The notes beneath the pieces are model-generated. The model saw nothing but the letters and a program-made list of their open reading frames with translations, searched no databases and was not told the DNA's origin. The translations under genes were made by a program, and so were the position numbers. DNA of 64,000 nt, taken from positions 7,998,001 to 8,062,000 of the forward strand of contig NC_088312.1 of NCBI RefSeq assembly GCF_910592395.1, given 5' to 3'. The DNA is from Lineus longissimus. Lineage: Eukaryota > Nemertea > Pilidiophora > Heteronemertea > Lineidae. Shown here piece after piece: positions 19,337 to 39,527 of this stretch. Every line of letters begins with the position of its first letter. Position 1 is the first letter of the stretch.

Positions 19337-19669
19337 TTACATCAATGTTTTGTGAACAATCTGAACATGCTTCTTTAGATTGCACCTCTGTGTACTCTGG
19401 TATGAACACATTGTGCATTTATAAGGTTTGTCCCCTGTGTGAACTCTCAAATGTACTTTTAGATGGTCCTTACGATTAAACAGCCTTGAACAATAGCTAC
19501 AGATGTGCTTGAACTCTGGGTGCTGCCGACGAATATGGGCCGTCAGATGGGCAATGTCTTCATACTGTCTCTGACAGGCATGACACGTTAGCGCAAGGGT
19601 CTTTAAGTTTCCCCCAGAGATGGATGATATCTTGTGCGATGTGCTGAGACAGGGACGACTCGCCAACCA
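19337..19669 (-). CDS. alternative terminal exon Q, 3 C2H2 fingers
   Basis: This is the most distal alternative 3' exon of the coiled-coil/zinc-finger locus. It opens at TTTTGCAG|TGG in phase 0, the phase left by the constant exon at 37822, and runs 110 residues to a stop. Fingers lie at about residues 29-50, 57-77 and 85-106. The second and third are joined by HTGDKPYKC. The middle finger has the R-K-D-H-L recognition helix that recurs across the locus. The third has Tyr-Gln-Ser instead of the usual aromatic-x5-Leu spacing, so it may fold less well. The isoform would be a coiled-coil nuclear DNA-binding protein. Target and role are unknown. Confidence 0.85.
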   Translation of the reverse strand, partial: WLASRPCLSTSHKISSISGGNLKTLALTCHACQRQYEDIAHLTAHIRRQHPEFKHICSYCSRLFNRKDHLKVHLRVHTGDKPYKCTMCSYQSTQRCNLKKHVQIVHKTLM

Positions 19670-20188
19670 CTGCAAAATAAAAGGATAGCCTCAAATTTAA
19701 TTAATTGACTGAAGACAACAAACCTGACAACAAGGTAATATAACATGAAATGGATCAAGTTCATTTATTAGAGACAACATCAGACATTCAAGATCATGGT
19801 GATAAGTCACTATAACCAAAACAAAGCTTTTTCATGCCTCCTCATCTTAATATAGAGAGGACATAGTCACAAGCAGGGAGTGCCAGCATTAATTAATTTC
19901 TAATGGGGCAAGGAGAGCATTTCCTATGACTGTCTGAGCTACATGTATGAAGAAGACAAGCAAAAGATTTGAATAAACAAATGATTTCTATGGACGTGCA
20001 CTGAGAGTGACGAAATTTATGGTGGATTCTGATCAATATACCCCACAGAATAAGGATTCAGAGTGATCATTTTGTTGTAAATATAAGTACAATGGGTGAT
20101 ATGAATGAGGACTCATGACAAGTAAATGCTTTTACTTTAATTTTGTACAGAAAAGCCGAGTGTATATTAGTGAAAGCATTTACTAGTC

Positions 20189-20194
20189 TTTATT
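20189..20194 (-). other. polyadenylation signal for exon P
   Basis: AATAAA on the minus strand, 51 nt after the stop of exon P. Confidence 0.55.
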
Positions 20195-20244
20195 AACATC
20201 ACCCTACCTCTGCAAGCCTCAACACAAGAAGTGTCACTCTGGGA

Positions 20245-20781
20245 CTAGGACACTTGTTCCGTGAGGTGAACATGATATCTCACAATATGTGACTTCAGTG
20301 ACTGCTTCTGAGTGAAAGCTTTAGTACAATGAGGACAGGCAAAGGGTTTTTCTCCAGTGTGAACAAGAATATGCTTCCTTAAATGATCTCGGCGGTAGAA
20401 CTTTTTCGGGCAGTGTGGGCACTGCTGCTCATATTTCTTCAACTGAGCCATATCATGAACACTCAGACTTGGTCGTGCTGTCTCTGGAGTCGACTCCTGG
20501 CCTGGTGACCAATAATGCTCTGGTGGAGCTGGTCTAGAAAAGGACTCCATATATGGTACTCTGATTCCATGTGCTGGTGGGAAGGCAGACTGATAAATGC
20601 CTCTACTATGGCTTATTTGTTTGCCTGGTTGATACTGGCTTCTTTGGAATGGTTGGTCTCCATGCACTGCCTTTCCATCTGGCCCAGTCTGTTCCAGTTG
20701 TCCGCCAAATCTGTCCAGAAATTTTTCTAAAGATTCTAATGGTTTGATCCTTTTCCACTCCCCACTTGAAAAGGATGTCCG
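20245..20781 (-). CDS. alternative terminal exon P, 2 C2H2 fingers
   Basis: The exon starts in phase 0 at CTTCCAG|CGG, giving RTSFSSGEWKRIKPLESLEK and onward, 178 residues to the stop. The acceptor lies about 110 nt upstream of the first usable start-like codon, so a start-codon-based ORF call truncates it. A Pro/Ser/Gln-rich region of about 120 residues precedes two fingers at about 121-141 and 149-170, linked by HTGEKPFAC. The first finger has the locus-typical R-R-D-H-L helix. It has fewer fingers than its neighbours. A canonical poly(A) signal follows 51 nt after the stop. Confidence 0.85.
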   Translation of the reverse strand, partial: RTSFSSGEWKRIKPLESLEKFLDRFGGQLEQTGPDGKAVHGDQPFQRSQYQPGKQISHSRGIYQSAFPPAHGIRVPYMESFSRPAPPEHYWSPGQESTPETARPSLSVHDMAQLKKYEQQCPHCPKKFYRRDHLRKHILVHTGEKPFACPHCTKAFTQKQSLKSHIVRYHVHLTEQVS

Positions 20782-21745
20782 CTGGAAGAGAGAAATACAC
20801 AGGTAAGGTATGGAACGATAATATATCGAATAGGCCAGAAAATATCTATGTTCAGCCTTCGTCTTCTCCTACATTCAGATGTAATTCATTAAATTTCATC
20901 TAAAAGGAAAGAAAGGTTAGCTCACCCGTGTACGTCAGACAAAGTAAAAGTTTGGCGATATATCTCAACATCTCCTCCGTTATGGGAAAGAAAGCCTTCC
21001 CTTTTCAAGATTTGTTGGGGGCATCCAGTGATAATGGGGCCATCCCTTGAAGGAAGAATCCAGGGAATTTATACTGAAGGCCAACGTCTCCACAAGTATG
21101 GAGTGTACAACTTCCCTGCTCCATATGTCTGATACATCACACCATCATGGTGTATCTCTGAGCACGAAGTACGAAAATCATATTTTCTGACGGCTGATCG
21201 AGATTATCTCAAAGACCTTCTGCTTGGAATTGCTGTCCAAGAAGTATTTCTCTATGTTTGGGGCTTCGGGATGCAAATGGGAGAATTCAGTGCCAATGCT
21301 TATGGGATTCACCCTCACTGGCAATGTGTTGATCGAGACAAAAACGTTTGTTGTTTTTCAGGCCAGTAAAGTTAGATGTGGAGTCAACTGAAACAAAGAA
21401 TATTTCGGACAAGAACAGATTTCTATTGTATTTATTATATACATGTAACTATTCCTCAATATTTACACATTCATATCTGGCATCAGTCATCTAATACTAA
21501 AACATGAACAACAAATTACAAAGATTCTCAATGAATCTGGCATTGGTGGAAGTCAGGTTCTGAGCGCCTTAGTTGTTGGTATGAGGGAGAGAAAGAAGGT
21601 GCAAATGTCTCTGTAGTCCAGCCTAAGAGATGAACACCATTCCTCCATGCAGTTACCTCAAGCTGCAAAACACTCTGAATAACAGAATTCAGTAGACTGG
21701 CTCATCCGTTTTTGCAATGGGCCAAGAAGTCACGACCATGGTGCC
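20782..21745. other. inter-exon sequence, partly open on both strands, unrecognised
   Basis: Between exons P and O, about 21.0-21.36 kb is unusually free of stops on both strands. The plus strand reads about 50 codons, a TGA, then about 65 codons. The minus strand also has a run of about 55 codons. No domain is recognisable, and the minus-strand frame does not open at a phase-0 acceptor, so I do not call a gene. It may be a decayed alternative exon without fingers. Confidence 0.35.
21431..21436 (-). other. polyadenylation signal for exon O
   Basis: AATAAA on the minus strand, 310 nt after the stop of exon O. Confidence 0.4.
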
Positions 21746-22165
21746 TCACCTTGACAAATGAATGATCATATGAGAGCGAAGTTTACCTCTCTGGGCAAAA
21801 GCTTTCCCACAAAGTGGACACTTAAATGGTCTTTCACCTGTATGAATTCGAACATGTCGTTCAAAATTTGAATAATGCCTGATTGATTTGTGACAGAATT
21901 GACACGTTATTGCTCCATTTTCACCGATGTGCGTCTTCAAGTGATTGCGAAACAAGAGCCATGATTCATAAGTGTCACCACATACTGCACATTTTTGTGG
22001 ACTATTTGTAATTGGCCTCCGCATGGCCCATGGTGCCGGGTCACTCGTAGTGTCTCCAGGAGGCAAAGCTTGGCCAGAGAATGACCCGAACATGTTACTC
22101 TGCATTCTCAGATCTTTGCTCGAGTTCTCCATCGGGGATCCCACTTCTAATGGATATTCACCAAT
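21746..22165 (-). CDS. alternative terminal exon O, 3 C2H2 fingers
   Basis: The exon has a phase-0 acceptor GCTCCAG|ATTGGT and runs 139 residues to the stop. Fingers lie at about 59-79, 88-108 and 116-136. The last linker is HTGERPFKC. The last finger ([14 protein letters not shown]) resembles the last fingers of exons M and N and the first finger of D (AQKG or AQRG helices), suggesting a shared origin. A low-complexity Ser/Pro-rich leader precedes the fingers. Confidence 0.87.
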
Positions 22166-22516
22166 CTGGAGCGACAATAAGAAATCTCAAGTTAGGCTTA
22201 AAATCTATGACTTTGGATGCCGTTTCATGACAATGAGGTTGTATAGATGTCATCAAACTGTCACTCCTTAACAAGTCACAAGTTCCATGCAGTCCTTTCA
22301 ACACAGCTACAGCACTAGAAAATTAATTTACACGAAGAGACAAGTTAGATGATGACTGGCATGCCAAAATCGTGAAACAAGTCTTTGAAAAGTTATATGC
22401 AACTATAACAGGTTCTACAACAGACATACAAATATATTCAATACTGTCATTTACAATTACTGTTTTGTTCACTTCACTGAGAATTATTCTTATTGTCACT
22501 GGAAATAATGTAAAGC

Positions 22517-23041
22517 CTATGACTGATTGTCATTAGAACTGCCATGAACTGTAACAGCATGAAGCACCAGGTTGCCTTTCTGAGCAAACCCTCTGTTACA
22601 AAGTTTACAAACAAATGGTTTTTCTCCTGTATGAATTCGGATATGACGAACAAGATGGTCGCAGCGACGGAATGTTTTTTCACAAAACTGACAGCGAAAT
22701 TCACCCATGGCATTCGCATGAGTTTTTAAATGCTGTCGGAGGAGGTAATCCCACTGAAAGATGTCGCCACAGAGCTGGCAAGGGTGAGGTTCTGCATCGT
22801 AAGAAAGAGTGAGGTCAAGAGCACTTCCTGAATGTGGCTTATCGGTCTTTCCATCATGAGATTCTTTTTGTCCTTCAAGAGAATCTAGATGTGGTCTTTT
22901 TCTTTGGTGAAACTCAGCTGGTCTGCCCGATTGCAAACTTTGATTCCAACTTGGGGGACAAGCTGGACTACTTGGACGACAGGAGATCTTGGTCGGTATA
23001 AAACCTGGGGCAGGATATTCTTCTGTCTTTGCGTCAGTCCA
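22517..23041 (-). CDS. alternative terminal exon N, 3 C2H2 fingers
   Basis: Acceptor TTCTTGCAG|TGG, phase 0, 174 residues. A polar leader of about 85 residues is followed by fingers at about 88-108, 117-137 and 145-166. The linker between fingers 2 and 3 is HTGEKPFVC. Finger 1 ([17 protein letters not shown]) is clearly related to finger 1 of neighbouring exon M ([17 protein letters not shown]), which indicates tandem duplication. The finger-2 helix carries the R-x-D-H-L signature. No canonical poly(A) signal was seen within about 300 nt. Confidence 0.88.
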
Positions 23042-23357
23042 CTGCAAGAAGAATGCAAGCTTTTATAGTCAAAGTATTTTGAATGATCTTCGAAAAGACA
23101 TTTAAACATTTCAACAGAATCGTAATTCAGGCATACACTAATGCACGCAAGAAAACATGGAAAGGGAGTCTTCCTTGATGATAACAGAGCTACCATAAAC
23201 CTTCCACTCCACTTGCAGTTTATCTAAATGTACGTCACTGTCGCAGCCTGTGTCAATTTTCTCAAAGCCATCGTGGGGCTATATTCATGGGCTATATACA
23301 TGAACTATGGGCACCGCAACGACAACATGAACGAGAAAAGCAACACATATAGCACCT

Positions 23358-23744
23358 CTATTCGAATTCGGAGTTCATTTGATGCCTGATCATATGAGCC
23401 GACAACCCCCCCTTCTGGGCGAACCTATGACCACAAACAGAACATTGATATGGTTTCTCTCCTGTGTGAGTCCTGACATGAAGGCGGAGATGATCCTTCC
23501 GGAAAAACTTCTTCCCGCAATGGGAACATTTCAAAGTTTGTGATGAGTGATATTTCATGTGACGCCGGAGGCTGTACAGCCACTGAAAGGTTTTCAAACA
23601 AAGTTTACAGACGTAGCTGCCATCAATGTAATCCATGTGTTCCGTTAGAACAGGCGCCTTGAGTCCAGGGCTGACCCCTTCGTTACCAACTAAACGTCTC
23701 TGATGGGCTTGCCGAGGGCTTTGCAGAGACGGTGTACAGAAGAA
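23358..23744 (-). CDS. alternative terminal exon M, 3 C2H2 fingers
   Basis: Acceptor ATCTTGCAG|TTC, phase 0, 128 residues. Fingers lie at about 46-66, 73-93 and 101-121. Finger 2 has the helix R-K-D-H-L-R-L (Arg -1, Asp 2, His 3), and the linker to finger 3 is HTGEKPYQC. Finger 1 shares the FQW-x-Y-x-L-R core with exon N. It is likely a paralogous copy of N with diverged finger 1 contacts. Confidence 0.88.
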
Positions 23745-23776
23745 CTGCAAGATAAAATTGGAGTAGGATATGTCAT

Positions 23777-23782
23777 TTTATT
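23777..23782 (-). other. polyadenylation signal for exon L
   Basis: AATAAA on the minus strand, about 174 nt past the stop of exon L and just upstream of the exon M acceptor. Confidence 0.45.
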
Positions 23783-23955
23783 ATCTAAAATCATTCTTTA
23801 TACAACCTAATTGCATTACATGTACATGAAGTACGATTTACGAGTGAACCGTAAATAAATGAGCACAGAACTTGATGACAGCATTGACCTTCATACTTGT
23901 ATTTCGTCATTTGTACGGCTTGCAAAACCTGCCTACGATTACCATTTCTCAAGCA

Positions 23956-24324
23956 TCAAAACGTCCTCTCAGACACCGCACTTTGTGCAACAACCTGTTG
24001 GCTACCATTTTGCTGATGTAAAGACAAATGTTTCATAAGCGCTGCTTTTCGATGAAAGCTACTGCTACATAAATCACATTGGTAGCGTCTGACACCAGTA
24101 TGCACCCCGGCCACATGATCCCTCAAGTTGTCTATTCGATGGAAACCCTTGCGACAATATTGACAGACATGTTTCGGCTGCGTATGATTTTTCATATGTC
24201 TCACTAGACTGGTGTGATACTTGAAATCTTTTGGGCAATGAGGACACTTGAAGGGTTGGAGGTTGGTCTCGAACGCAAGCATACTACTCGTTCGATGAAC
24301 TTGGCCGGGTTGATAGTACACAAA
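23956..24324 (-). CDS. alternative terminal exon L, 3 C2H2 fingers
   Basis: Acceptor GTATTTTACAG|TTT, phase 0, 122 residues. Fingers lie at about 27-47, 54-75 and 83-103. Finger 1 reads CPHCPKDF...HMKNH and finger 2 reads CQYCRKGFHRIDNLRDH with a four-residue His spacing. The same two-finger pattern occurs in J and K, so J-K-L form a local duplication group. The linkers are not the canonical TGEKP type between fingers 1 and 2. Confidence 0.87.
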   Translation of the reverse strand, partial: FVYYQPGQVHRTSSMLAFETNLQPFKCPHCPKDFKYHTSLVRHMKNHTQPKHVCQYCRKGFHRIDNLRDHVAGVHTGVRRYQCDLCSSSFHRKAALMKHLSLHQQNGSQQVVAQSAVSERTF

Positions 24325-24522
24325 CTGTAAAATACAACAAAAAGTTCTTATTTTGGTGATTTCATGTAATAACACCGAAAAGATGCATGACATGCTCAAA
24401 ATGGCATGCAGTGGAGGGAGAAACGCTAGCGGAGCACACCTTTGATCCCCACACCACTCACTCGGGCAACGAAAACGGCAGCTCACTCATCAGTTGTTTA
24501 CAAACAAAACACTCTCATGACT

Positions 24523-24909
24523 TCAATCCTTTTTTAAGTCATCAAAGGTTAAGTTTGCACTTGGATCAGCCCAAGTGTTATGGTGGATAGCAATGTGCTC
24601 ATCCAGACTTCCCTTCTTGAAAAAGCTCTCCGGACACTTTAGACAAGGATAAGGTGTCATTTTATGGATGTTCCTAACATGTTTCATCAAATTATCCTTG
24701 CGGTGAAAATTTCTCTGACAAAACGAACATGAAAAATTTGCCACGGAGTGATTTCTCATATGTCTCAACAGACAGCCTTTGTTTTTGAAATGTTTTGGAC
24801 ATTCTGGACACACGAAAATTGAGTTATCACAATCTGTCAAGCCTTTCCCACGTCGGAAATGCAATCCTCTTGGAACTCGAATGTCAACGTCACCATAGGA
24901 GGTTGCCCA
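24523..24909 (-). CDS. alternative terminal exon K, 3 C2H2 fingers
   Basis: Acceptor GTATTTTACAG|TGG, phase 0, 128 residues. Fingers lie at about 34-54, 61-82 and 89-109. Finger 1 (CPECPKHF...HMRNH) and finger 2 (CSFCQRNFHRKDNLMKH) match the pattern of J and L. The acceptor itself is nearly identical to that of L, supporting a duplication that included the intron end. The C-terminal tail after the fingers is acidic. Confidence 0.88.
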   Translation of the reverse strand, partial: WATSYGDVDIRVPRGLHFRRGKGLTDCDNSIFVCPECPKHFKNKGCLLRHMRNHSVANFSCSFCQRNFHRKDNLMKHVRNIHKMTPYPCLKCPESFFKKGSLDEHIAIHHNTWADPSANLTFDDLKKD

Positions 24910-25247
24910 CTGTAAAATACAGAAAGAAAGTTTATTTCCAAGTCCCTCAAAACTGCCAATATGCATTCATGTCTCAGAGTAAAACCCGAGGCTTTTTGGT
25001 GTCCAGACTCAAATCGTACAGCTGGCGGTTTCAGTATAACTAGAACTGTCCTGAACCACCAAACGCATGGAACTGCCTCAAAAAGCCTCACTCACTTTGA
25101 GTATATTATGGCAGGCAGGTACTACAATGTACTCTTGGTACCAGTAATAAAATGTAGAATATCAGCTGAAAGCCAAGTGCAGAACAACACCAAGTGTAAA
25201 TCTCAATATCGTTGACATCAAGTGAAATGTCCCTTCCACCAACGAAC

Positions 25248-25658
25248 TCACTCCTTTATTGAATATAAAGCATATACACTGCTTTGGCTATGTTGGAGGT
25301 CTCCACTGCCCTCATCATGCCCTTGGGGCCCATGAACAAGACTCATATGCTGGTTCAACTGGTGCGGTTGAATAAATGACTGGGAACAAATCTTGCACCG
25401 ATGAGGTCTCAAGCCAGTGTTATGTTTGATCATAACGTGCTGCTCCAAATTGTCCTTGCGATAAAATCCCCTATTACAGTAACGGCAGACGTTAGTCGGT
25501 GTACAATGGTTCCGCATGTTTTGTTTGACTGATTGTCTGCATCTGAACTGCTTAGGGCAGTAGGGGCAGACAAAGCAAAGACCACTCCCACTGATGTTCA
25601 CGATTTTGAACAAAGATTTTCCGTTAGGTTGTTCTATGCCTGATTCATTGCCAGAGAA
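25248..25658 (-). pseudogene. decaying alternative exon J, 3' splice site lost
   Basis: The coding frame is intact for 136 residues. It aligns with K and L, with fingers at about 31-51, 58-79 and 88-109, but two defects are visible. At the expected acceptor the sequence is a long T run then CTTGCAC instead of CTTGCAG, so the AG is missing. The next AG (AATCAG) would put the reader straight into GCA TAG. In finger 1 the first zinc-binding His is Asn (S-V-K-Q-N-M-R-N-H). Finger 2 keeps the R-K-D-N-L helix. Most likely this is a recently inactivated member, or a polymorphic or sequencing difference. Confidence 0.72.
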
Positions 25659-25909
25659 GTGCAAGAAAAAAAACAGGCCTCGGTTTAAATTTTGACCCAT
25701 AACCGCAAAACAAATGATGTCCGGGTGATACAAAAACATCACTATTGGTGCATGAAATTGGTCAAGAAAGGTCTTGGTTGTGTGCGTCCATCAGTCAACT
25801 TGTTGCACATCTTGTCCAACGAGGCTATGATATCCTTACACCCTTGTGAAAACCTTAAGGAGGTGTTTGTAGGGCGGTCTTATTTCAATCAGCCATACAG
25901 TCGAGATAT

Positions 25910-26257
25910 TCAGTGAGCACATTTATGTCTGAGTAGATGACCAGTCTGATTGAAGGTCTTGCGACATAACTGACACATATATGGTTTCTCTCCTGTGTGG
26001 ATTCTCAAATGAACTTTGAGAGAGTCACTCCTCAAGAACAATTTACCACAAAAGGAACAGTTATGGCCAAACTGATCAAACCCAACACTGTGTGTTTTCA
26101 TATGTGTCGTAAGTCCTGCCATTAACGTGAACTTTTCACTGCAAAGAGTGCATCTGTATTCAGGATGTGACCCAGTGCCTCCAGGTGAAGTGAACAGACC
26201 AAGTTCAGCCCTCGGCTTCCAGTTAATACAAGGGGAGTTTGCATTGTAGGGATGGCA
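25910..26257 (-). CDS. alternative terminal exon I, 3 C2H2 fingers
   Basis: Acceptor TATCTTCCAG|TGC, phase 0, 115 residues, among the shortest modules. Fingers lie at about 36-56, 67-87 and 95-115. The last finger ends the protein at its second His (H-K-C-A-H-stop). The linker between fingers 2 and 3 is HTGEKPYMC. The finger-2 helix is L-R-S-D-S-L, a variant of the common R-x-D type. Confidence 0.86.
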
Positions 26258-26841
26258 CTGGAAGATATAAGTAAACATGATCTGTATAAAATCCGTTCAA
26301 AAGGACCCAGTGCACTTGCAGCAGTCATTTGCTTGGAAATTAGCAACGTCTCTGCCAATTTTCTTTCAAATAACCCTAGAATAAATATGATCAGTAGTTC
26401 CAGTTGTGTTAGACAGATGGCAGCTTCCTTTTCAAAGTATGAGCCAACATGTCCGTGAAAGGAAATAAGCTCTGACGTTTGTATGTTCGGATTTATTTCT
26501 GAATACTCTACATAGAACATAAAATCATCTTAAATATTCAACAAATATTTATCCGTACAGTAGTGATCATAGTAATGAGACAAATCTCTACCGTTGAAAT
26601 ACCAGACATTATACATTTCTTAAAATCTGCAACACAAAAGCACTGAACTTTGCCGACTCCACAGAAATACTCAAGTACAGCACATCAGAATCACTGACAT
26701 GATTGACTGAGTATGAGCAAAAACCCATTGGATAACAAGGAGAAACTACAGCATTACCAATCACCAATGTAGGCCTATCGAAATGAAAACGTAACTTTTT
26801 TTCCCGAGTTTGCTACTGAAGGGCCCACGTCAACTGGAGTC

Positions 26842-27279
26842 CTAGGAAAGTTCATGACTTTCTGGATGGTGTCGACGCACATGGTGATTAAGCGTGCCTT
26901 TCTGAATGAACCCCTTGAAACAAAACGGACACTCATACGGTTTCTCTCCGGTGTGCATCCTCACATGATCCTTGAGATGACTCTGGCAGTAGAAGACGCG
27001 TTTGCAGAAGTCACATTTGAACCCGGACGATGTATGCCGCTTCATGTGAAGCGTCAGGTTGCCTTTCTGAGTGAAGCGAGTCTGGCAATGAAGGCATTCA
27101 TATGGTTTCAGTCTGAAATTGCAGCTGTGCATATGAACCTTCAAATGCTCCAATTCCGGAAATACCTGACCACAATCCATGCATTCTAAAGATTTGGATG
27201 AAACCAGAGTTGATTGGCCAAAGTCGCCAAGGGTCCCTTCCGCATTCTTAGCAACGAGATGGCCGCAAGATTCGTCCCA
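26842..27279 (-). CDS. alternative terminal exon H, 4 C2H2/C2HC fingers
   Basis: Acceptor TGTCTTGCAG|TGG, phase 0, 145 residues. Four fingers lie at about 33-53 (ending H-x3-C, a C2HC finger), 62-82, 89-109 and 117-137. HTGEKPYEC joins the last two. It has one finger more than most sister exons. The finger-2 and finger-4 helices (TQKGNL, IQKGTL) are near-copies, pointing to internal duplication. Confidence 0.88.
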   Translation of the reverse strand, partial: WDESCGHLVAKNAEGTLGDFGQSTLVSSKSLECMDCGQVFPELEHLKVHMHSCNFRLKPYECLHCQTRFTQKGNLTLHMKRHTSSGFKCDFCKRVFYCQSHLKDHVRMHTGEKPYECPFCFKGFIQKGTLNHHVRRHHPESHELS

Positions 27280-27730: not shown

Positions 27731-28897
27731 CTAATTTGAACCTTCATCAGTATCAAGATGTTCATTATAGAGAGCGCCCATTTCATCATTATTCTTAGTT
27801 TCTTCATTCACTTCCATGGCTGCAGAAGCAGAATGCTCAGAGAGAATATGATTCTCCAGACTCTTTGCATCCAGGTGTGATGCACCGCAGCGAAGACACT
27901 GATGTGACGAAATTCCCGAATGAGTGTCCCTATGTTTCGATAGCTCATAATTATGAAGGAACTCTTCGTGGCAAATGGAGCAGACAAACGGCTTTGCATA
28001 CATGTTGTCTTTGTGTTTTTGCTGGATGTGCTCACGCAGTGATCCGTCCGATTTGAAAAGCTCGCCACATTCTATACAAACGAAAGATGCAACTCTCGGC
28101 ATGCGCATGTGTATGTTACGAATGTGGTCGTTCACTGCGCTTTTCCTTGCGAACATCTTCCCACAGTGTTCACATGCAAATGGCTTCTCTCCAGTATGTG
28201 AACGGATGTGATCAACACAATGATCCGCCCGTGCGAACTTCTTTGGGCAGTGCGGGCAAATGATTAATTTTTTGCCATCCTTTTCGACAGGCTCAGGGCA
28301 TTGGCGTGAATAATCAGCCTTGGGTGCTCTCTGTCTGCCTTGGAATTGTCCCTTCTCATATCCAGGTGGCGAATCTTTGCACAATTTCATATGATGATTC
28401 TTCTGTGATTTCCTTTTGAATTTTTTTGGACAAAAGTCGCACATGAACGGTGTTTCACCGGTATGGATACGGACGTGATCGACCCAATGATCATGGCGGG
28501 AAAACCAACGCCCGCAATACTCGCAACTCCACCCTTCTCCTTTAGGATGAGGCTTGTGGTGGCCTTGGATATGATGCAGAAGGCCATTATACGTCTTGAA
28601 CACTTTACCACAGTATTTGCAGAGCCTTGTCTCCAGTGGAATCTCTCGGTACAAATCGAACATCCATTTTTCCTTATGTGGCGGCGCACGAAATGCACTT
28701 CCAGTCATGTCTCCCACCTCTGAAGCAGAACCAAACCCTTGTGATGCATCGCTGTCTGATATTTCGTACTTGACGCCAGGATGTTCTTCAAAGCCTAAAG
28801 CAGGCTTAGTGGTCAATGGCAAATAAACAGAGTTGGGCTCGAGGTATGCGCTCTGGTGAAGGTCACCGGGGTCAAGGATGTCCAACGATCTCTCACA
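27731..28897 (-). CDS. alternative terminal exon G, 8 zinc fingers
   Basis: This is the largest module, with 388 residues in one exon after CTTCCAG|TGT in phase 0 (CERSLDILDPGDL and onward). Fingers lie at about 93-114, 125-145, 153-173 (C2HC), 214-234, 242-263, 274-295, 306-326 and 334-355. They form a triple, a gap of about 40 residues, then a run of five. Helices of fingers 2 and 4 (R-H-D-H-W-V-D-H and R-A-D-H-C-V-D-H) are close copies, so a finger block was duplicated within the exon. The C-terminus is acidic. If the isoform model is wrong, this is the exon most likely to be an independent gene, although it has no start codon near the acceptor. Confidence 0.88.
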   Translation of the reverse strand, partial: CERSLDILDPGDLHQSAYLEPNSVYLPLTTKPALGFEEHPGVKYEISDSDASQGFGSASEVGDMTGSAFRAPPHKEKWMFDLYREIPLETRLCKYCGKVFKTYNGLLHHIQGHHKPHPKGEGWSCEYCGRWFSRHDHWVDHVRIHTGETPFMCDFCPKKFKRKSQKNHHMKLCKDSPPGYEKGQFQGRQRAPKADYSRQCPEPVEKDGKKLIICPHCPKKFARADHCVDHIRSHTGEKPFACEHCGKMFARKSAVNDHIRNIHMRMPRVASFVCIECGELFKSDGSLREHIQQKHKDNMYAKPFVCSICHEEFLHNYELSKHRDTHSGISSHQCLRCGASHLDAKSLENHILSEHSASAAMEVNEETKNNDEMGALYNEHLDTDEGSN

Positions 28898-29261: not shown

Positions 29262-29654
29262 TCACATTCCAAGATTCATTCTCAACTCCTGCCACTCCTG
29301 CGGATGTGATGACGATACATGAGACATAAGCTGAGCATTCTTGTCAAAAGCTGCATTACAAAATGAACAAGAATAGGCGTTTTCCTGAATATTGGAATGA
29401 GTCCGTAAGTGGGTCAGCAAGTGGACCTGACGATAAAACTTTTTATCACAATGTGGACACGGTAAACCAGCCGAGGTATGCTTTTTGAAATGATCCCGAA
29501 GATTCCGTTTGAACTTGAAAGTTTTACCACACTCTGGACAGCGACAATGTTCTGAACGGGTTAGACCTCTGGCGTGACGAGGGGTATCATGAGAAGCATG
29601 CCAAGGGAACGCAGGCTGTACAACCCTATTCAGACTACGGTAGAAGAGGCCATT
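29262..29654 (-). CDS. alternative terminal exon F, 3 C2H2 fingers, no start codon
   Basis: Starting in phase 0 at TGTCTTCCAG|AATGGC, the exon reads 130 residues (NGLFYRSLNRVVQ and onward) to a TGA. It has fingers at about 39-59, 66-86 and 96-117. There is no ATG until codon 109, so a start-codon-based search misses it; I found it by translating from the acceptor. Finger 2 is CPHCDKKFYRQVHLLTH and finger 3 is CSFCNAAF...HVSSSH. A poly(A) signal follows 188 nt after the stop. Having no possible start of its own, it supports the shared-5'-exon model. Confidence 0.86.
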   Translation of the reverse strand, partial: NGLFYRSLNRVVQPAFPWHASHDTPRHARGLTRSEHCRCPECGKTFKFKRNLRDHFKKHTSAGLPCPHCDKKFYRQVHLLTHLRTHSNIQENAYSCSFCNAAFDKNAQLMSHVSSSHPQEWQELRMNLGM

Positions 29655-30028
29655 CTGGAAGACATAAGATTACGGCCAGATTAAAGAATGCTGTAAATAG
29701 CCAATGGGTAAGCAAGCCTATCAGCAACAACCACACTAACACATGAATCTTACACCTTTAACAAACTCTGCAAACTTCACAGGGTGCGTACAACAGTGTT
29801 CCTTCTACAACAGCAAGTGCCGAGGCCAAGAATCCTTTTGAAATTAACCTTCAGCAGGCTCATTCCATCAATATCCAATATAAAACCACAAAATGTCGAC
29901 CAAAAGGACAGACAAACAAACCCAAACAAAATAGAAGTATATTTCAAGCATATCCCTTTTTCTAATGAGTACATGAGAGTACATACGTACTTTCGAGTCT
30001 AGTCTTTCCATCAATTATAAGTCAAATA

Positions 30029-30445
30029 CTAATGATTTCCAGCCACTTTGTGAGAGAACACATGCGCCAGCATACTCTGTTTATAAGTGAAGGCTTTATC
30101 ACATAGCGGACATTTGAATGGTTTCTCTCCTGTGTGAATCCTCATATGAATATCGAGGTGATCTCGACGATAGCAGACTTTCCCACAATAGGAACACTTA
30201 AACTGGGACGCAACGTCATGTTTCTTCATATGTTGAGTCAGGTTAGTTTTATACTTGAAGGACTTGTTGCAAAATTTACAAAGATTCTCAACTCGCTGTT
30301 GCTGTGCCAGAACATGAAATTCTGAATTGCTTTTGGACGGTTGGAACCTGCTTTGCGTATGGGCAGGATTGGGCGTTCTCCCAGCTGGCCAAGGCTGTCC
30401 TTCATTTTCAAGAGGAAGAGTTGTTCCGAAACCAAGACCACTGGA
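30029..30445 (-). CDS. alternative terminal exon E, 3 C2H2 fingers
   Basis: Acceptor TTATTTTGCAG|TCC, phase 0, 138 residues. A Pro/Ser/Gln-rich leader precedes fingers at about 56-76, 84-104 and 112-132. HTGEKPFKC joins fingers 2 and 3. The finger-2 helix is R-R-D-H-L-D-I. In finger 2 the hydrophobic core Phe is replaced by a Cys-Tyr pair (GKVCYRRDHL). Confidence 0.87.
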   Translation of the reverse strand, partial: SSGLGFGTTLPLENEGQPWPAGRTPNPAHTQSRFQPSKSNSEFHVLAQQQRVENLCKFCNKSFKYKTNLTQHMKKHDVASQFKCSYCGKVCYRRDHLDIHMRIHTGEKPFKCPLCDKAFTYKQSMLAHVFSHKVAGNH

Positions 30446-30911: not shown

Positions 30912-31316
30912 TCAAGGATTGGGGAAGCCATCTTCAAATGCTTGTTCTCCAGGATGCTGTTTCACTCTATGATACTGCCACGCCGAATACGACATAAATC
31001 CGTCACCACAGATCTTGCAAGCATAAGGTCGTTCTCCCGTATGTTGTCGCATGTGTATCTTCAACACGTTACTGTGCTTGAAAGCTGATGAGCAGACGTG
31101 ACAATTATACGGCTTCTCCCCGGTGTGTATTCTCATATGAACAGTCAAGTTCCCCCTCTGAGCAAAGGCTTTTTCACAAAGTGAACATTTGAATGGTTTT
31201 TGGCTTTCGTTACTTCTAAAACGTCTTTCAAAAGTCACTGTCTGGGGTGTTTCAATGAAATGTGTCCTCTCGAGCATGATTGGGCTGATCCGAGTCGAGA
31301 TTCCCTTCAAATTTGA
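30912..31316 (-). CDS. alternative terminal exon D, 3 C2H2 fingers
   Basis: Acceptor AATTTTTCAG|TCA, phase 0, 134 residues. Fingers lie at about 44-64, 72-92 and 100-121 with canonical linkers HTGEKPYNC and HTGERPYAC. Finger 2 (CHVCSSAFKHSNVLKIH) shares the F-K-H-S-N core with exon B and the related F-K-N-S-N of exon C, so B-C-D form a local duplication group. AATAAA lies 434 nt downstream at 30473-30478. Confidence 0.88.
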   Translation of the reverse strand, partial: SNLKGISTRISPIMLERTHFIETPQTVTFERRFRSNESQKPFKCSLCEKAFAQRGNLTVHMRIHTGEKPYNCHVCSSAFKHSNVLKIHMRQHTGERPYACKICGDGFMSYSAWQYHRVKQHPGEQAFEDGFPNP

Positions 31317-31861: not shown

Positions 31862-32299
31862 TCAGGGTTGTGATGCCAAAGTAGATTCGTGGAACATCGT
31901 CTTAGAATTGTGGAACATGTTTTCCTCCAAGCTCTGTTTATTGATGTCGGACAAAGGACCATGAAAGTTGTGAACAGACTGAAGATGAACAAGAAGACAT
32001 TTTTGCTCTACAAACGAATGGTAACAAAAATGGCAAATGAATGGATTTTCTCCGGTATGGCGTCGTACGTGTACTTTCAAATTGTTGCTGTTTTTGAACG
32101 CTTTCTGACAATAGCTGCAGGTATAAGGGGTCTCTCCGGTATGAACTCGAATATGAACCTTCAAATTCCCTTTTTGGTTGAAGGACTTGTCACAGAAATT
32201 GCACTTGAATTTCTTGTAAACGAAGCCCTGTTTTGGCGAAATGTCTCCGCCGACGCTACTGGCTGGCCATGAGGTCATGCGACCAATAGGGGTGGTCCA
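31862..32299 (-). CDS. alternative terminal exon C, 3 C2H2 fingers
   Basis: Acceptor TTCTTGCAG|TGG, phase 0, 145 residues. Fingers lie at about 33-53, 61-81 and 89-110 with linkers HTGETPYTC and HTGENPFIC. Fingers 1 and 2 align closely with those of exon B (CDKSF...LKVH then AFKxSNxLKVHVR). ATTAAA lies at about 31740. Confidence 0.88.
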   Translation of the reverse strand, partial: WTTPIGRMTSWPASSVGGDISPKQGFVYKKFKCNFCDKSFNQKGNLKVHIRVHTGETPYTCSYCQKAFKNSNNLKVHVRRHTGENPFICHFCYHSFVEQKCLLVHLQSVHNFHGPLSDINKQSLEENMFHNSKTMFHESTLASQP

Positions 32300-32867
32300 C
32301 TGCAAGAAGAAACGAAGGAAGAAGTAAGACTAGGTGAAGGGGCGAGCTCGGTGTTAATCTGATCTGCACAACATCAAAACACTAGAAAAAGAAAGATAAT
32401 CTGACAACAACTGTATACTGAAGAATATTGTATTTTACACACTAATGTATGTATTTGAATATGAGGATTAGGCGAAAATCAGAGGTTATGCCTTTCTTCA
32501 ACTGGACACCGTCTTTTAACAAACATCAAATATACGACTGAGTGTACCAATACAACATTGCCTGGTAACTCAAGGCGTCAACTACTCAACTATAGGTATA
32601 ATATCGGAAAAATCTTCCAGATATGTCCACCCAGACATATTGATTTTTGTCAGCACAATGAATGTCATCCATGAAACTTGAGTAACCATGGTAACTGTCC
32701 AACAGTCAGGAATCTCAGTGGAGTGCCACACTGATTGCAGAATGCTGCAGTCTTGACTCCGGCCTCTTTCAGGCAGATAATAGACATCCAGTCTTCCATT
32801 TCAAACAAGACAACTGGTGTCGGAATGAAATGTCATGAAATCTCAGACTTCCAAACAAAACAAAATC

Positions 32868-33344
32868 CTATACTTTTTCCAACTTTATGCAACCAAGTCT
32901 CATGTGAGGTGGACACTCCACCCTTTCCTGACATAACAACATATGACTTTGTAGATGACGGTGCTCGGAGAAGCATTCGCCACAATTTTTGCAAATATAT
33001 GGTTTCTCTCCTGTGTGTTTCCTAACATGAACCTTCAAGTGATTACTATGCTTGAAAGCCTTTTTGCAGAATCGGCAAGTATATGGCGTCTCCCCAGTAT
33101 GAATACGCAAATGGACTTTCAAATTCCATTTAAGAGAGAATGACTTGTCACAATAACAACATTTAAACTGTTTTAGTTTTGGTAGACGTTCCTGTCGTGT
33201 TGTCGCGGGTAGGCCTATTCGCCACGGAAAATCCAACATCGACGGAAAACAATTCACCATAGACGGATATTTCCGTAAGAGGAGAGAGGTGCCTTTGTTT
33301 TGAGTGCGGAGGAGTCCGTGAGTTGTTACACCACCTTGCGTGCA
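32868..33344 (-). CDS. alternative terminal exon B, 3 fingers (last C2HC)
   Basis: Acceptor GTTCTTGCAG|TGC, phase 0, 158 residues. Fingers lie at about 62-82, 90-110 and 118-138. The third ends H-x3-C. The linkers are HTGETPYTC and HTGEKPYIC. The B, C and D modules share the F-K-x-S-N-x-L-K-(V/I)-H finger, and B/C are the closest pair. Confidence 0.88.
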
Positions 33345-33766
33345 CTGCAAGAACAAAATAGGGAAACCTGTAGCGGTACTGTCAGACAAGACACCAATAT
33401 AGACTACAGGAGCAGACGTCAGCTACCAATAACAACAATAACTGGAAAATCGAATGATTTGACTTTATTTTCTAAGAACTATTTACATGACAACAACAGG
33501 AACACAGAAACCAAGACTGATAAAACATGCCACGAAATATGTTAGGTAAAAGATGGGGCGGTCAACTTGTGGGAAATGCTAAAATGTCGAAGGTGACACT
33601 TTAATGTTGACACTTTTTTGTAACATTGGCTTTGAAGTTGCAGATTACAAAAGAAAGTTCAACCAAATATTTCTTTAGGAAACTTCATGGGGCACTGGTT
33701 TTTGCTGAAAACAATTCAGGTGTTTTCGATCTTGGCAAAAATTTCCCCCATACTTAATGCACTGTC

Positions 33767-33945
33767 AGTTGGACCACACTGCACAGGATGGTGCCACAAA
33801 GCCGCACTTGAAGGAAAACCCCTCCACAATGTCGACATCTGAATGGCTTGTCACCAGTGTGTTGATTAGCACATGGCTATATCGAAATTTCAGGCAACAG
33901 AATTCACAATGTATGCTTTTTCACCAGTATGGCATCTCATTCTGA
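33767..33945 (-). pseudogene. relic of a zinc-finger exon
   Basis: On the minus strand, broken C2H2 sequence is readable in several frames. It includes C-H-T-G-E-K-A-Y, then a stop, then a finger tail (F-R-Y-S-H-V-L-I), then after a frameshift Q-H-T-G-D-K-P-F-R-C-R-H-C-G. Two TGEKP-type linkers about 84-90 nt apart, plus stops and shifts, show a decayed module between exons A and B. It sits where one more alternative exon would be expected. Confidence 0.75.
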
Positions 33946-34513
33946 CGCATACTTGCAATTGCATTTGTAGAAAATTGCTGTTACGTTTCACTGCCCTGCT
34001 ACAATAACATGGAGTCATTGATCACTGGCAGTAAAGGGTGACCACGAATTCATGGCTGAAATCAAGACTCAGCAACATGAGACATAGCTGTAGCAGCCGA
34101 TGACCATGGTTGCCATAGTAACAGCAGAGTGGTTCTGACAATCCCCATGGCAACCTTGCGCAAAGGGAAGCAGGACTTGTTCATCATGCTGAAGCTGAAC
34201 CCTCCGGCTCATGTGACAGAAGATGACATTGATGTAGATACCTGATCGATAGCAATGATGTGAGGGAACAGCAGTGGAAGTGCTTCAGCTTTGAGCAAAA
34301 GGGAATGACTGAAGCTTTTCTTTATCATTTTTTACCATTTTTAAAATGAAGGCAGACGACTCAAAAATTGGAAAGGTGGTGTACCACTCGATAACCACTT
34401 TGAAGGAAGATAAATCAGGCATCAAATTGCACAATTGTAGCACTGACACAGCCTCTTCAGCGCAGAAAGCGGCAGCCCAGCAGTTCCTAACTCATTTCAT
34501 CATTCCCTCCTGA

Positions 34514-34879
34514 TCAGTAATATTTCTCTCTTGTATGGTAAATAAGAAAACAGTCATTTTTACACAATGGAACCTGGCATCCATCGCAGATGTAACGAGT
34601 TGCGCTTCGCTTTTTTCGCCTAGCGCAGACACGACATCTTCGCTGGGGGTATGGAGACCGTGATGTACTAGGTATATTGACCATTTTGTGATTTGCTTGG
34701 TTGCCATCAAGTCTGCCGGGAGGATCAGAATTTTGGTTGTTAAATCCTGCAACAGCGAGGAGTTCTTCCACAGTTTGGGGCATTTGTGCAGAATGTTTGG
34801 CCTTGTTTGTTATGGAATACCACCGTGATGGGTGCTGGTTATTATTGCCGGAATTCCACTGGATGGCACCACCGTGCAC
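34514..34879 (-). CDS. alternative terminal exon A, piggyBac-type zinc ribbon
   Basis: This is the first alternative exon after the constant part. Acceptor CCACTCCAG|GTG, phase 0, 121 residues to the stop. Instead of C2H2 fingers it ends in RRCRVCARRKKRSATRYICDG followed by CQVPLCKND-CFLIYH. That gives Cys at about 82, 85, 98, 101, 106 and 110 and His 115. This is the C-terminal zinc ribbon of piggyBac-family transposases (zf-Tnp_2 type). The preceding G-R-L-D-G and I-P-S-T segment also resembles the run-up to that ribbon. No catalytic DDE domain is present nearby. The best reading is a captured transposase DNA-binding tail used as an alternative module. In the transposase, this domain binds the element's ends. 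Confidence 0.82.
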   Translation of the reverse strand: MHGGAIQWNSGNNNQHPSRWYSITNKAKHSAQMPQTVEELLAVAGFNNQNSDPPGRLDGNQANHKMVNIPSTSRSPYPQRRCRVCARRKKRSATRYICDGCQVPLCKNDCFLIYHTREKYY

Positions 34880-35752
34880 CTGGAGTGGAAATAAAGAACG
34901 CGTCAATTTAGTAGATTTGCTCAAAGAAAGTGTTAGTAAAGTTTGCATCATGGCAAATTTCGTCAAGAAAACTTTGAACCAGTAACAGGAATGATAATGG
35001 GTTTGAATATCGACATAACAACCTCGTAGTGTTCTTTTTCTTATTACTATGTATACATCCCGACTCTCATGGTTTTATACTCCCTGCATGTACTAACTTA
35101 CTGATACTATCAAAAGTTTAATGGTAAGACTGACGACATGACCAACCACTTCCTCTCTAAAACAACAAACCTGAAGTCAAATAACTAAGGAGCGAAAGAC
35201 ACGGAAAAGAATAAAATATGGAAACCAAGTTTCAAGGACAAGCTGGTTTACACTACCTTCACAGATATGTAACTACAAAACATAGGCCTACTTTGACGCA
35301 CACACTAGCCAAGACAACCACTCCAACTAGACAGACCCGGAAATGTATCTTCAAGCGGAAATGTATCTTCAAGCGTTGCAGATGGAAAATTGCCCCTTTC
35401 CTTTGAAGTGCATCAATATTTATAAGTGTCCCAGTCCACATCCTTCATCCAAGACCACAAATCTCCTTTCCTTTTGCTATCCACTCATTCAGACCTCCTC
35501 TCTTCAGCACATGAAATAGATTATTTCCAAATTTCTCTCAGGGTCTTCCATTTTTTTAACATAACATATAGCTAGAAGTTGTATAAAATTCGTCTTTCTT
35601 CATGGAAGCATCACACTGTCACTGGTATGGTCGAAGTTATCAAATCAAGAGGAATCTTTTATCTCTTTTTTTACAAACTTGTATATTCCGCTAATAATCT
35701 AGAAATGACAAGAGTCAAGATGATCTGGAGTCAATTTTAAGCACTCCAAATA

Positions 35753-35860
35753 CATGTGTCATTTCTATGCAAGTCTTCTATCTAATTCTACACAGTAAAC
35801 GGTTATCATGTGTCATTTCTATGCAAGTCTTCTATCTAATTCTACACTGTACACGGATAT
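35753..35860. repeat. 54-bp tandem duplication
   Basis: CATGTGTCATTTCTATGCAA and the following 30 bases occur at 35753 and again at 35807. Differences are confined to the last few positions. Confidence 0.85.
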
Positions 35861-36684
35861 TAGGCTGAAAAAAACTTCCTGAAATAAAAGAAATGTGGGC
35901 AGTAGGGCTATGGCCAAAACAGAGTCAAGCAAAAGCCCCATTATCTTCCTTTCTTGTCTGGACTATAGGTGCTGAAACATTTCACAATGGTCAATCTCAT
36001 CCATGACAAACAATTCTGGACTAAACAACACAGACGCATTTCGTGCAATAACTTTTTACATCCTGGACAGTTGCAAAATTCTGAATTTCAATGCAACTAT
36101 TTTAAAGCTGAAGGATCTTTAAGATATATGATCGACTTTCAACGACTGACCTAATGTTGCCAAAATCGAAAGCATTTTGTTTCCCCACTTGTAACAGTGC
36201 TTCACAACTGGTGGCACTGATCAGGAATGAGGCAAATTGAAGTCTTTCAAAAACTTGAGCAAGAATCAGTATCATGTATATGTAACATATCTTAGAGGAG
36301 ACTGACCAATGTGACACAGAAAATACTGCATGCAAATACATGTAAGGAATGATGAAATTTTCAAGCATGAATTATGGAACTTTTTTCTCTCTCTTTCAGA
36401 GAACAAGCTTTTGTATCAAAGTCCCTGCACACAGAATGTATACATATTGTTAACAAGTTCCATTTGACATGCTTGATTGATAAACCAAGGAACTGAGAAG
36501 AATGTTCCCAAAATCTTGTTTGTCACCAAATTTTATATGATTCAAGAAGAAAAGACCACTTTTTTTCTCTCGAAAATTGCATGCAAGCCAGGGTGTTCTA
36601 CTGATCCCCACTGCCTGTTCGTGACAGTTCGATCAACATCACCAGCTACTACACATGAAATGACCTAAAAACAATGCCATCACA

Positions 36685-36976
36685 AAATGTCTTGATATTT
36701 GTATCAATTGTTTAAAATAGCAGTATTCTAACTGAGGCAAGTTGATGAAAATGCATGTAAATCTAGTTGTTGGCATGCCATCGCTTTTCATATCAAATAT
36801 TTGCAACATTTTTGTTGGCTCCAAGAAACAAAATGTCTTGATATTTGTATCAATTGTTTAAAATAGCAGTATTCTAACTGAGGCAAGTTGATGAAAATGC
36901 ATGTAAATCTAGTTGTTGGCATGCCATCGCTTTTCATATCAAATATTTGCAACATTTTTGTTGGCTCCAAGAAACT
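36685..36976. repeat. perfect 146-bp tandem duplication
   Basis: Copies at 36685-36830 and 36831-36976 are identical by eye. This means a very recent duplication or an assembly artefact. It lies inside the intron of the zinc-finger locus and has no coding content. Confidence 0.92.
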
Positions 36977-37821
36977 GACAAAGGGACTGTTTCGACGCCA
37001 ATGGTTGCATCACTGAAGATGAGTCAAGTTTTAAAGACATCGTTGATTCCAAAGACAGATAGTCAACAAACACCTTCAAGACAGCCACATTTTGGGTGTT
37101 AGCTGAATAAACCTAACTAAATGACATAATGCCTGCAAGTAGATACAGTAAGAAAGCAGTGCTCATGTGAGTGACTGACACTGCACACCTTGAAACAACT
37201 AGGTCCTAAATACCATTCATTACAGCACGAAGTCAAATAATGATTCTTCAGTGAAGCAGCCCCACAGCACCAAACTAGACCATGGATCATTCAACTTTTC
37301 TAGAAAAACATTGCTGATAGGGAAAAGACCAATTCCTTCAGAAGTATACCATGTTTACAGATGAATTTCTAGATATTGTTTGATGGCTTCACGGCTTTAT
37401 CTGATTTTAGGGAGTCTGGAAAGTTGAAGGAACAATAACGCAACTGCGTACATACCCGAATAGAAATGAATACACTGTGAAATATCACTCCAGTCAGTTC
37501 TGCGGAGTGTTTAAAATGAAGCCACCATCATATCATCAACAATTTTGTAATTCACTATACTACGGATTGGTAGACAGCATTATTTACCAATCAAAATGGA
37601 TTATTTTTTACCCTACTTTCATTTTTAAAGCACAACATTTGAACTTATCAAACTGCAGATTGCAGCAGAACAATTTTATGATCCCAAATCAAAATTTACA
37701 GGAATAATGTTCAAAAAGTTTCTTGATCCTGAGAGGTACAAAGTGACCATCCATTCATATTTTCCAAACTCCCCTAAACCAGATGATTTTAAAATCTTCC
37801 ATGATAAAAAAAGACACCCAC

Positions 37822-38361
37822 CTCTGCTGATGCTTCCTCCTTGAGCTCGCCTGACATGCCTGGAGCTGGCATGTCAGCGAGGGAACTCGATGGAATAGGC
37901 CCCGATACTGGCACAGGACTTGAATCTTGGCTTAGATTTGAATCAGACTGTTCCATCTCTACATCACCTATTTTCATTTGACTCGTATCGATTTGATTAA
38001 TATGAAAATTGTCAGAGTTTGATGAGGTAGGATTGTTAGGGTCTAACAAATGTAACGGAACTTTCCACGATTCCAAATGTGCATTATCATTTTGTGAACT
38101 TCTATTTTGCAAAGTCATTGTGCTAGTCCGTGGTACCTTCTTTTGAGGGCTATGTGAAACACTTTGTTGGAAAGAAGGCGAATTTAAAGGCCTGGAAGCG
38201 TTTTTTTGTTGTGAACTAGCAGTACATGTATATAAGTCTTTTCTTTTACCGTCAGCAGCCAAAGACATGATGCTTGAAATGGCAAAGTCTTGGTGCTCGA
38301 CAGACATGTCTAGGGTTGGTGGAGGGGAATCCGGAATCTCGATCACCTGGGAACCAGATGC
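37822..38361 (-). CDS. constant exon 2 of the zinc-finger locus (disordered linker, SIM)
   Basis: This is a 540-nt exon, 180 residues, phase 0 at both ends (acceptor CTACTTTCAG|GCA, donor GAG|GTGGGT). It is rich in Ser, Pro, Gln and Asn and probably disordered. Near its start, S-Q-V-I-E-I-P-D-S-P-P-P is a textbook SUMO-interacting motif (V-I-E-I plus acidic/phosphorylatable flank). Its last residues contain L-K-E-E, a psi-K-x-E SUMO acceptor consensus. Basic patches (GKRKD, QKKVPR) could serve in nuclear import. The donor is followed by 17 phase-0 terminal-type exons, so it is the hub of the alternative splicing. Skipping it keeps the frame. Confidence 0.85.
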
Positions 38362-38845
38362 CTGAAAGTAGAACATGCAGACATTTGTGAATTATGTAAT
38401 ATGATTGTTAACTCTTCGAGTGCCCTTGATGGATAAGTCCGATTTTTCGTCTTACACGTATCCTCCAAGTGCCCACGACGGAACTTTCTGATTTATTGTT
38501 AGTCCATCACCAGAAAGGTAGATGTCCTCTTAATCGCCGCGAAACAGTTGCTAACAATCGTCGATGAAGTTGGAATTCCCCAGATGTAGGGGCAAATCGC
38601 GAAAATCGATGTGTACTAAAAGAGTTAACAGCAATAACAGACATAGGAAGCCAATTGACAAACAATCAGGATTAGTTTTCGAATCACATCAACTGAGAGT
38701 GTTACCCATCCACCACATTATTGTACTGGAACATGTAGATGTACTGGTACATGTACATGTAACTTGTAGACACTACAACCAGCACATGTCCAGCTTCCAA
38801 CTCTTCTATTTACAAGTTACCTTAGTACGAGGAAGAAATACTTAC

Positions 38846-39527
38846 TGCTTTAGATTGAAGACGTCTCCTTGTAGCTGCATGTGCTCTTCTCTCTGAATCA
38901 AGCACCTCTTCTAACTGTCGAACTCGGTCCTTGAATTCTTCATTCTCACGTCGCATTTCATCCTGAATTTTTCGCAATAGTCGATCCTTGACACTCATCT
39001 GTTCATCTTTCACATTCAACTCCATCTTAAACTTTTCATTGTCCATTTTAATTTGTACCAATCGATTCTGTTTTTCCATCATTTCTGTCCGTGTTTCCTC
39101 TAACAAGTCCCGATGTGACGCCAAGTCATTTTGTACCCGATGTAGTAAATTATCAGTTGTTGTAAACTCTACCCTTAATTTTGAAATTGCCAGTTCTTTT
39201 GCATTCAATTCCTCCTGCAGCTTGGACAACTCTTCAGAACTGTTCCCCTGGCCTTCAACGAATTCAGCTTTCATTTCTTTGATTTGTGCTTTCTGAAACT
39301 CCATCTGCTTTTCTGCTACACTAATACTGTTTTCTCTCACAAAAAGGTCTGCTTGATACTTCGTAAAAAGACTGAATAAGTCTGACCAGACTTTACTAAG
39401 CAGAGCACCTTTCTCGTGAAGCTCCGCCTGCATATTCTGGACGGCTTCTTGAGACTCTGCCATTTCTTCAGTCATTTTTTTGTATGTTAATGCTATTGCA
39501 CCAAACTCTGTTTAATATTCCGCCTAT
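38846..39527 (-). CDS. constant exon 1 of the zinc-finger locus (coiled coil)
   Basis: Coding 38846-39475 (210 residues), starting at an ATG that has an in-frame TAA 39 nt upstream in the same exon, so this is the true N-terminus. It ends at GCA|GTAAGT in phase 0. Almost the whole exon is heptad-rich Glu/Lys/Leu sequence (for example LSKLQEELNAKELAISKLRV and RLLRKIQDEMRRENEEFKDR), i.e. one long coiled coil for multimerisation. It takes the place that BTB occupies in lola and mod(mdg4). Bases 39476-39527 are 5' UTR behind a CTGTTTTTCAG acceptor, so a noncoding exon or a spliced-leader site lies upstream. Confidence 0.85.

Follow-up and report, generated by a model that had tools for sequence, protein, structure and literature searches.

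We analyzed a stretch of 64,000 nucleotides of chromosome 5 of the nemertean Lineus longissimus (C5:7998001-8062000; hereafter the window), the site of the gene annotated by NCBI as LOC135487844. According to the genome note (PMC8593623), the genome of this species spans 391 Mb and chromosome 5 spans 23.94 Mb; the assembly that we searched comprises 391,118,348 bases. The gene lies on the minus strand. Its coding region opens with two constant exons, behind which stands an array of last exons, here called tails, that encode C2H2-type zinc fingers and, in a single case, a zinc ribbon. A sequence-only reading of the window had proposed that the constant part is spliced to one tail at a time, and we examined this proposal using the annotated isoforms, the paralogous loci of the genome, and domain searches.

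The constant exons

The first constant exon (38846..39475, minus strand) begins with an ATG at 39475, encodes 210 residues, and is unchanged in the NCBI isoforms P0001-P0003; upstream of it, an acceptor at about 39527 leads into the 5' untranslated region. Its hydrophobic residues recur with a period of 3.50, a periodicity equaled in strength by 0 of 5000 shuffles and consistent with a coiled coil. The second constant exon (37822..38361, minus strand) encodes a disordered linker of 180 residues with the motifs VIEIPDSPP and PVPVSGPI. Each exon is a whole number of codons long and ends at a GT donor in phase 0. The lengths, donors, and phase given in the sequence-only reading were thus confirmed on checking.

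A Pfam scan of both constant exons returned no family above cutoff. Because no above-cutoff domain is present, we conclude that the gene has no BTB domain, as had been claimed, and the same scan found no KRAB box in these exons. Comparison of a constant-region profile with solved structures gave weak coiled-coil matches alone, at E values of 0.13 or worse. The linker motifs recur among the paralogues described below: of 25 paralogous loci, 21 have a VIEIPDSP-like motif and 17 a PVPxSGPI-like one. We take VIEIPDSP to resemble a SUMO-interaction motif.

The array of last exons

Behind the linker exon, and likewise on the minus strand, lie 16 intact tails and two dead copies. The intact tail at 34514..34879 encodes a piggyBac-type zinc ribbon and is discussed separately. 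Twelve tails encode three C2H2 fingers each. Two of these are seen in isoform P0001: 31862..32299, the first 47 codons of which are joined to the exon at 31316, and that exon itself (30912..31316). Acceptor, frame, and finger count identify the other ten, at 32868..33344, 30029..30445, 29262..29654, 25910..26257, 24523..24909, 23956..24324, 23358..23744, 22517..23041, 21746..22165, and 19337..19669. The same features identify a tail with four C2H2/C2HC fingers (26842..27279), whereas the tails with eight C2H2 fingers (27731..28897) and with two (20245..20781) are present in isoforms P0003 and P0002, respectively.

All 16 acceptors named by the earlier reading consist of an AG that opens a phase-0 frame running to its own stop, on the strand of the constant exons. 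Their pyrimidine tracts exceed those of controls: positions -20 to -4 hold on average 13.25 pyrimidines of 17, compared with 8.7 at 1115 same-strand control AGs, and at least 13 pyrimidines are found at 75% of the 16 acceptors versus 4.5% of the controls. Together, the 15 finger tails encode 50 C2H2-type fingers with 47 different four-residue contact codes. This agrees with the earlier count of at least 50 C2H2/C2HC fingers, the sixteenth tail being the zinc ribbon. The finger pattern has 58 matches in the window, which include a few duplicates and strays outside the array, versus 0-4 in each of 20 base-shuffled windows.

One of the dead copies (25248..25658) still has an open frame. At the phase-0 acceptor site it reads CAC, and in its first finger the first His ligand is replaced by Asn. 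In this copy, the only one that died recently, loss of the acceptor accompanies loss of a finger ligand. The other copy, at about 33775..34006, is the decayed relic of a finger exon, interrupted by stops and frame shifts. A previous tally of 17 exons, 16 of them intact, was therefore right about the intact tails and the broken one and missed this older, eighteenth copy.

Splicing of the tails

Splice joins were taken from NCBI isoform models alone. In P0002 and P0003, the constant part is joined to the exons at 20781 and 28897, respectively, exactly at the predicted acceptors, which substantiates the central proposal that a coiled-coil part is spliced to alternative DNA-binding last exons. P0001 enters the exon at 32299, leaves it after 47 codons via an internal GT, and continues into the exon at 31316. 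The sequence-only reading had predicted a junction from donor 37822 to each acceptor, giving about 16 isoforms. Such junctions are present in the NCBI models for 20781, 28897, and, within the P0001 hybrid, 32299; none was seen for 12 tails, whose part in that estimate comes from sequence only.

We also mapped the isoforms of paralogous loci. The mapping comprised 24 rows, and exclusion of P0010-P0014, which had been misassigned to the 5.761 Mb locus through a short word in common, left 19 representatives from seven loci. Seventeen of these consist of the coiled-coil exon, the linker exon, and one tail that begins after an AG and ends at its own stop. Isoform P0017 jumps over 15 finger frames. 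The exceptions are P0001 and P0018, the latter a paralogue isoform in which a helix-turn-helix exon is joined to part of a finger exon. The mutual exclusivity of the tails claimed earlier thus describes 17 of the 19 isoforms, but it is not absolute, since P0001 joins two finger exons and P0018 likewise combines two exons.

A family of paralogous loci

Searching the genome revealed at least 34 coiled-coil exons, a lower bound as only the best candidates were scored; chromosome 5 carries 33 of them and C11 the remaining one. They occur in clusters of up to eight on both strands, and one has an internal stop. Protein searches with the constant region yielded 73 proteins, 68 from Lineus and five from Joint Genome Institute (JGI) metagenome contigs. 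The 68 Lineus isoform clusters, which represent as many as 190 member sequences, fall into 25 constant-region groups, 17 of which have at least two tails.

For a census of the arrays, we took the window together with 30 kb behind each of six coiled-coil exons and 20 kb behind that on C11, which amounts to eight stretches and nine coiled-coil genes of the 34. A finger-bearing frame was defined as an open frame of at least 45 residues with at least two fingers, and the dead exon of the window was counted. All 136 such frames lie on the strand of the coiled coil and none on the opposite strand. The strongest acceptor within 300 nucleotides is in frame for 108 of the 136 (one-third expected, p = 3.6e-28); at random control positions, it was in frame in 172 of 480 cases. 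In the longest array, 30 kb contain 29 finger frames, and the array may continue beyond.

The shared strand bears on the alternative that survives best, namely trans-splicing of the constant to the variable parts, some tails having internal promoters of their own. PMC11426971 states that trans-splicing occurs in lola and mod(mdg4), and the length of the arrays, which span 20-30 kb, could be taken to favor it. With all 136 finger frames on the coiled coil's strand, however, splicing within one transcript is enough, and we consider trans joining improbable.

The metagenome sequences provide information on the age of the loci. Exon P0054 is 80% identical to the coiled-coil exon of LOC135487844 and is paired with it in the tree at 100/100. 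Each of four coiled-coil exons from the metagenomes groups with a different Lineus locus or set of loci; for P0052, the closest relative is the P0035 group by raw identity (76%) and P0040 with P0061 by tree (98/91). Because the metagenome exons are spread across the tree, with P0054 beside LOC135487844, the loci predate the split of Lineus from the source animal of those exons. These exons appear to read past the exon end into an apparent donor, as expected of genomic exons, and the animal behind them is probably another nemertean. No relatives outside Lineus and the metagenome contigs were found at E values up to 10 in word-based protein searches; these needed shared 5-residue words, and one considered at most 8000 candidates, so that more distant relatives may have escaped notice. 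Among the papers searched, none dealt with this coiled-coil/finger-tail gene family, and the accessible part of the genome note (PMC8593623) makes no mention of "zinc finger".

Some paralogue isoforms (P0067, P0068, and P0070) have tails without finger motifs, and the P0068 and P0070 tails have no Pfam match; the arrays may hold other kinds of domain. Long multi-finger frames, the longest of 1406 residues, also cluster at C14 ~13.26-13.33 Mb and at C8 ~10.40-10.52 and 12.12 Mb. The coiled-coil exon search found no coiled coil there.

Transposase-derived tails

The tail at 34514..34879 contains no C2H2 finger. It matches PF13842 above cutoff (E = 7.2e-9), and its last 72 residues match the extreme C-terminus of the piggyBat transposase (9c0f, E = 2.5e-12). 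This piggyBac assignment replaces that of an unclassified metal-binding domain. Acceptor, phase 0, and domain are all present, and no annotated isoform with this tail was seen. We also set aside a fresh transposon insertion: the other piggyBac-like matches in the genome are at most 51% identical to the tail, its first 35 residues are covered by no other genome match, and the genome search found no in-frame transposase adjoining it. Twelve of the piggyBac-like matches sit in identical-looking 778-residue frames on several chromosomes.

A second ribbon match, at C5:22374546, shares its strand with another coiled-coil exon, which it follows at a distance of 1.8 kb. It has a strong phase-0 acceptor and a 91-residue frame and stands just before the finger tail of isoform P0061. 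A different transposase domain is found in the paralogue isoforms P0034 and P0018, both of which carry in their tails a helix-turn-helix of the Tc5/CENP-B type (PF03221, E = 2.9e-16 and 8.6e-9, respectively). In both transcript models, the transposase domain is in frame with the host part, and P0034 maps as coiled coil, linker, and one tail. Judged by these domain matches, some tails derive from transposases.

Duplication, decay, and constraint

For 14 of the 16 finger tails of the window (the dead one included), the best match lies inside the locus. Across the family, the best match is inside the tail's own locus for 30 of the 77 tails compared (permutation mean 5.2, maximum 15) and for 65 of the 136 genome frames (permutation mean 18.5, maximum 37). 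Neighboring tails in the window are also more alike than non-neighbors (permutation p ~0.0007). Best matches within loci and alike neighbors point to local duplication as the source of new tails.

In nine close tail pairs, the proportion of nonsynonymous differences (pN) in the finger framework is 0.16-0.24 and that of synonymous differences (pS) is 0.57-0.97. At the four contact positions, pN is higher than in the framework in seven pairs and equal to it in two. Given the small counts and near-saturated synonymous sites, we read this as constraint with freer contacts and not as positive selection.

The array could instead consist mostly of decaying finger duplications, with few tails that matter. 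The two dead copies in the window, the small number of isoforms annotated for the gene (three), and the coiled-coil match elsewhere with a stop could all be attributed to such decay. Yet 16 of the 18 copies are open and retain their ligands, and framework pN is well below pS in all nine close pairs, so that we regard general decay as quite unlikely.

Further alternatives and points of doubt

Another alternative treats each tail as a small independent zinc-finger gene, driven by its own promoter and placed by chance behind a coiled-coil gene; we consider this very unlikely. In its favor, nine of the 16 tails do have at least one in-frame methionine ahead of the first finger, whereas seven have none, and the earlier statement that most tails lack a credible start codon is only partly right. 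The lack of such a methionine in seven tails speaks against separate genes, as do the phase-0 acceptors at 16 of 16 tails, three of which, plus that at 32299, are used by annotated isoforms. Moreover, the layout is repeated at seven further stretches with no frame on the other strand, and the dead exon no longer has an acceptor. Equally hard to credit is serial splicing of the tails into long multi-finger proteins, which P0001 (part of 32299 plus 31316) and P0018 (helix-turn-helix plus part of a finger exon) would fit, given that every tail has its own stop, that 17 of 19 isoforms have one tail, and that no internal donor matching at least 8 of 9 consensus positions occurs in the 16 window tails, a filter so strict that the genuine donors of exons 2 and 3, with scores of 6 and 7, would fail it.

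Several observations nevertheless weigh against reading the locus as one gene with a full set of interchangeable ends. As only three isoforms have been seen for LOC135487844, 12 of the 16 intact tails are without annotated use; their use is suggested by sequence features. Strict exclusivity is violated by P0001 and P0018. By our crude score, 28 of the 136 frames have a best acceptor that does not match their phase. An AATAAA or ATTAAA, a putative poly(A) signal of the individual tail, is located between the stop and the next acceptor for only 10 of the 16 tails, a count made without a chance control. The coiled coil is assigned solely from periodicity and composition. Similarity depends weakly on array distance overall (Spearman -0.15, p 0.06), and with synonymous sites near saturation, selection is only roughly shown.

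Other features of the window

Two tandem duplications are present, one of them an exact 146-nucleotide duplication (36682-36973) in the intron ahead of the tail array; the other, of 54 nucleotides (35753-35860), has copies that are 94% identical. Upstream of the gene, at 40072-40345, is a small element resembling a miniature inverted-repeat transposable element, with 51-nucleotide inverted ends that are 86% complementary. A neighboring gene contributes an exon with a Rab-effector type FYVE_2 zinc finger (14597-14968, minus strand; PF02318, E = 7.2e-9). Small cysteine-rich peptides that appear to be secreted are encoded by two similar frames, at 54761-55126 and 56105-56536 (minus strand), the latter with no Pfam match. 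At 60102-61588 (plus strand), there are Sushi (CCP)-like pieces, one of which falls short of the Pfam cutoff; adjacent to them are low-complexity TTRVxPT repeats with open frames on both strands. Transfer RNA and Rfam scans of the window gave no matches.

Proposed model

Building on the observed anatomy and phase, the common strand, the annotated isoforms, the paralogues, and the transposase origin of some tails, we put the probability that LOC135487844 is one gene with two constant coding exons and 16 working alternative last exons at roughly 0.9. Donor 37822 would normally join one phase-0 acceptor, skipping the tails ahead of the chosen one. Every choice would give the same front end with a different DNA-binding end, either one of 15 finger sets or the piggyBac-type zinc ribbon. 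The coiled coil would multimerize, also between paralogues, the tails would confer different DNA specificities, and the products would act as transcription or chromatin regulators. Over evolutionary time, arrays would grow by local duplication, decay via loss of acceptors or ligands, and take in transposase DNA-binding domains.

Comparison with known systems

PMC11426971 describes 20 isoforms of lola, 17 of them with different C2H2 ends, and at least 30 isoforms of mod(mdg4), with one constant part and alternative ends; it gives the TTK-type BTB as arthropod-specific. LOC135487844 resembles lola in its constant 5' exons, its many alternative C2H2 last exons, and its front-end multimer domain, which in Lineus is predicted. 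It differs in having a coiled coil and a disordered linker where lola has a TTK-type BTB, in belonging to a nemertean family with at least 34 coiled-coil exons, compared with one arthropod locus, and in showing, family-wide, no sign of needing trans-splicing. With mod(mdg4), it shares the plan of one constant part with alternative ends. The ends of mod(mdg4), however, are mostly FLYWCH, whereas those in Lineus are mostly C2H2; the Lineus gene has no BTB; and the Lineus finger frames are all on one strand per locus. Without a BTB and in a non-arthropod host, the Lineus gene is therefore a probably convergent variant of the lola/mod(mdg4) plan and not a member of that class. The sequence-only reading had also suggested convergence, and the restriction of relatives to Lineus and metagenome contigs in word-based searches agrees with it.

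PMC8616336, in passages on Cosby et al. 2021, describes the joining of transposase DNA-binding domains to host domains via alternative splicing in tetrapods. The Tc5/CENP-B tails of P0034 and P0018 are similar host-transposase fusions, and the piggyBac ribbon tails are candidates; what differs in Lineus is that the transposase-derived end is a single choice among the many of a long array. A further parallel is with the lineage-specific clusters formed by KRAB zinc-finger genes in tetrapods. Here too, finger genes are clustered and lineage-specific, and contact residues change faster in seven of nine pairs. The Lineus genes differ in having no KRAB, in placing their diversity mainly in alternative exons of shared genes, and in having short finger arrays, mostly of 2-4 fingers.

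Two broad roles fit these genes, and we lean toward neither. The products may be cell-type regulators like those of lola, or they may recognize mobile elements, as KRAB-finger proteins do. The transposase tails and the freer contacts favor the mobile-element role, and the conserved constant parts fit both. Tentatively, and at odds that we would put somewhat below even, the family may form a chromosome-wide combinatorial system of nemerteans that is independent of arthropods. Such a system would comprise about 30 switchboard genes with about 10-30 ends each (several hundred in total, as extrapolated from 136 frames in nine genes), with coiled coils pairing within and between genes and a transposase-fed repertoire that tracks mobile elements or labels cell types.

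The names given to the products have practical consequences. NCBI isoform names follow the fingers ("zinc finger protein 263-like", "B-cell lymphoma/leukemia 11A-like", "Sp8-like", and "MECOM-like"), and when isoforms of one gene are named in this way, orthology assignments and counts of transcription factors in spiralians can go wrong. Because loci, dead exons, and transposase-derived tails can be compared side by side, the birth, diversification, and death of last exons become testable in this family. Evolution has probably arrived more than once at the lola-type plan, in which a single front end that forms dimers is combined with any of many DNA-binding ends, and the Lineus version has a different front end and is scaled to a gene family within one phylum.

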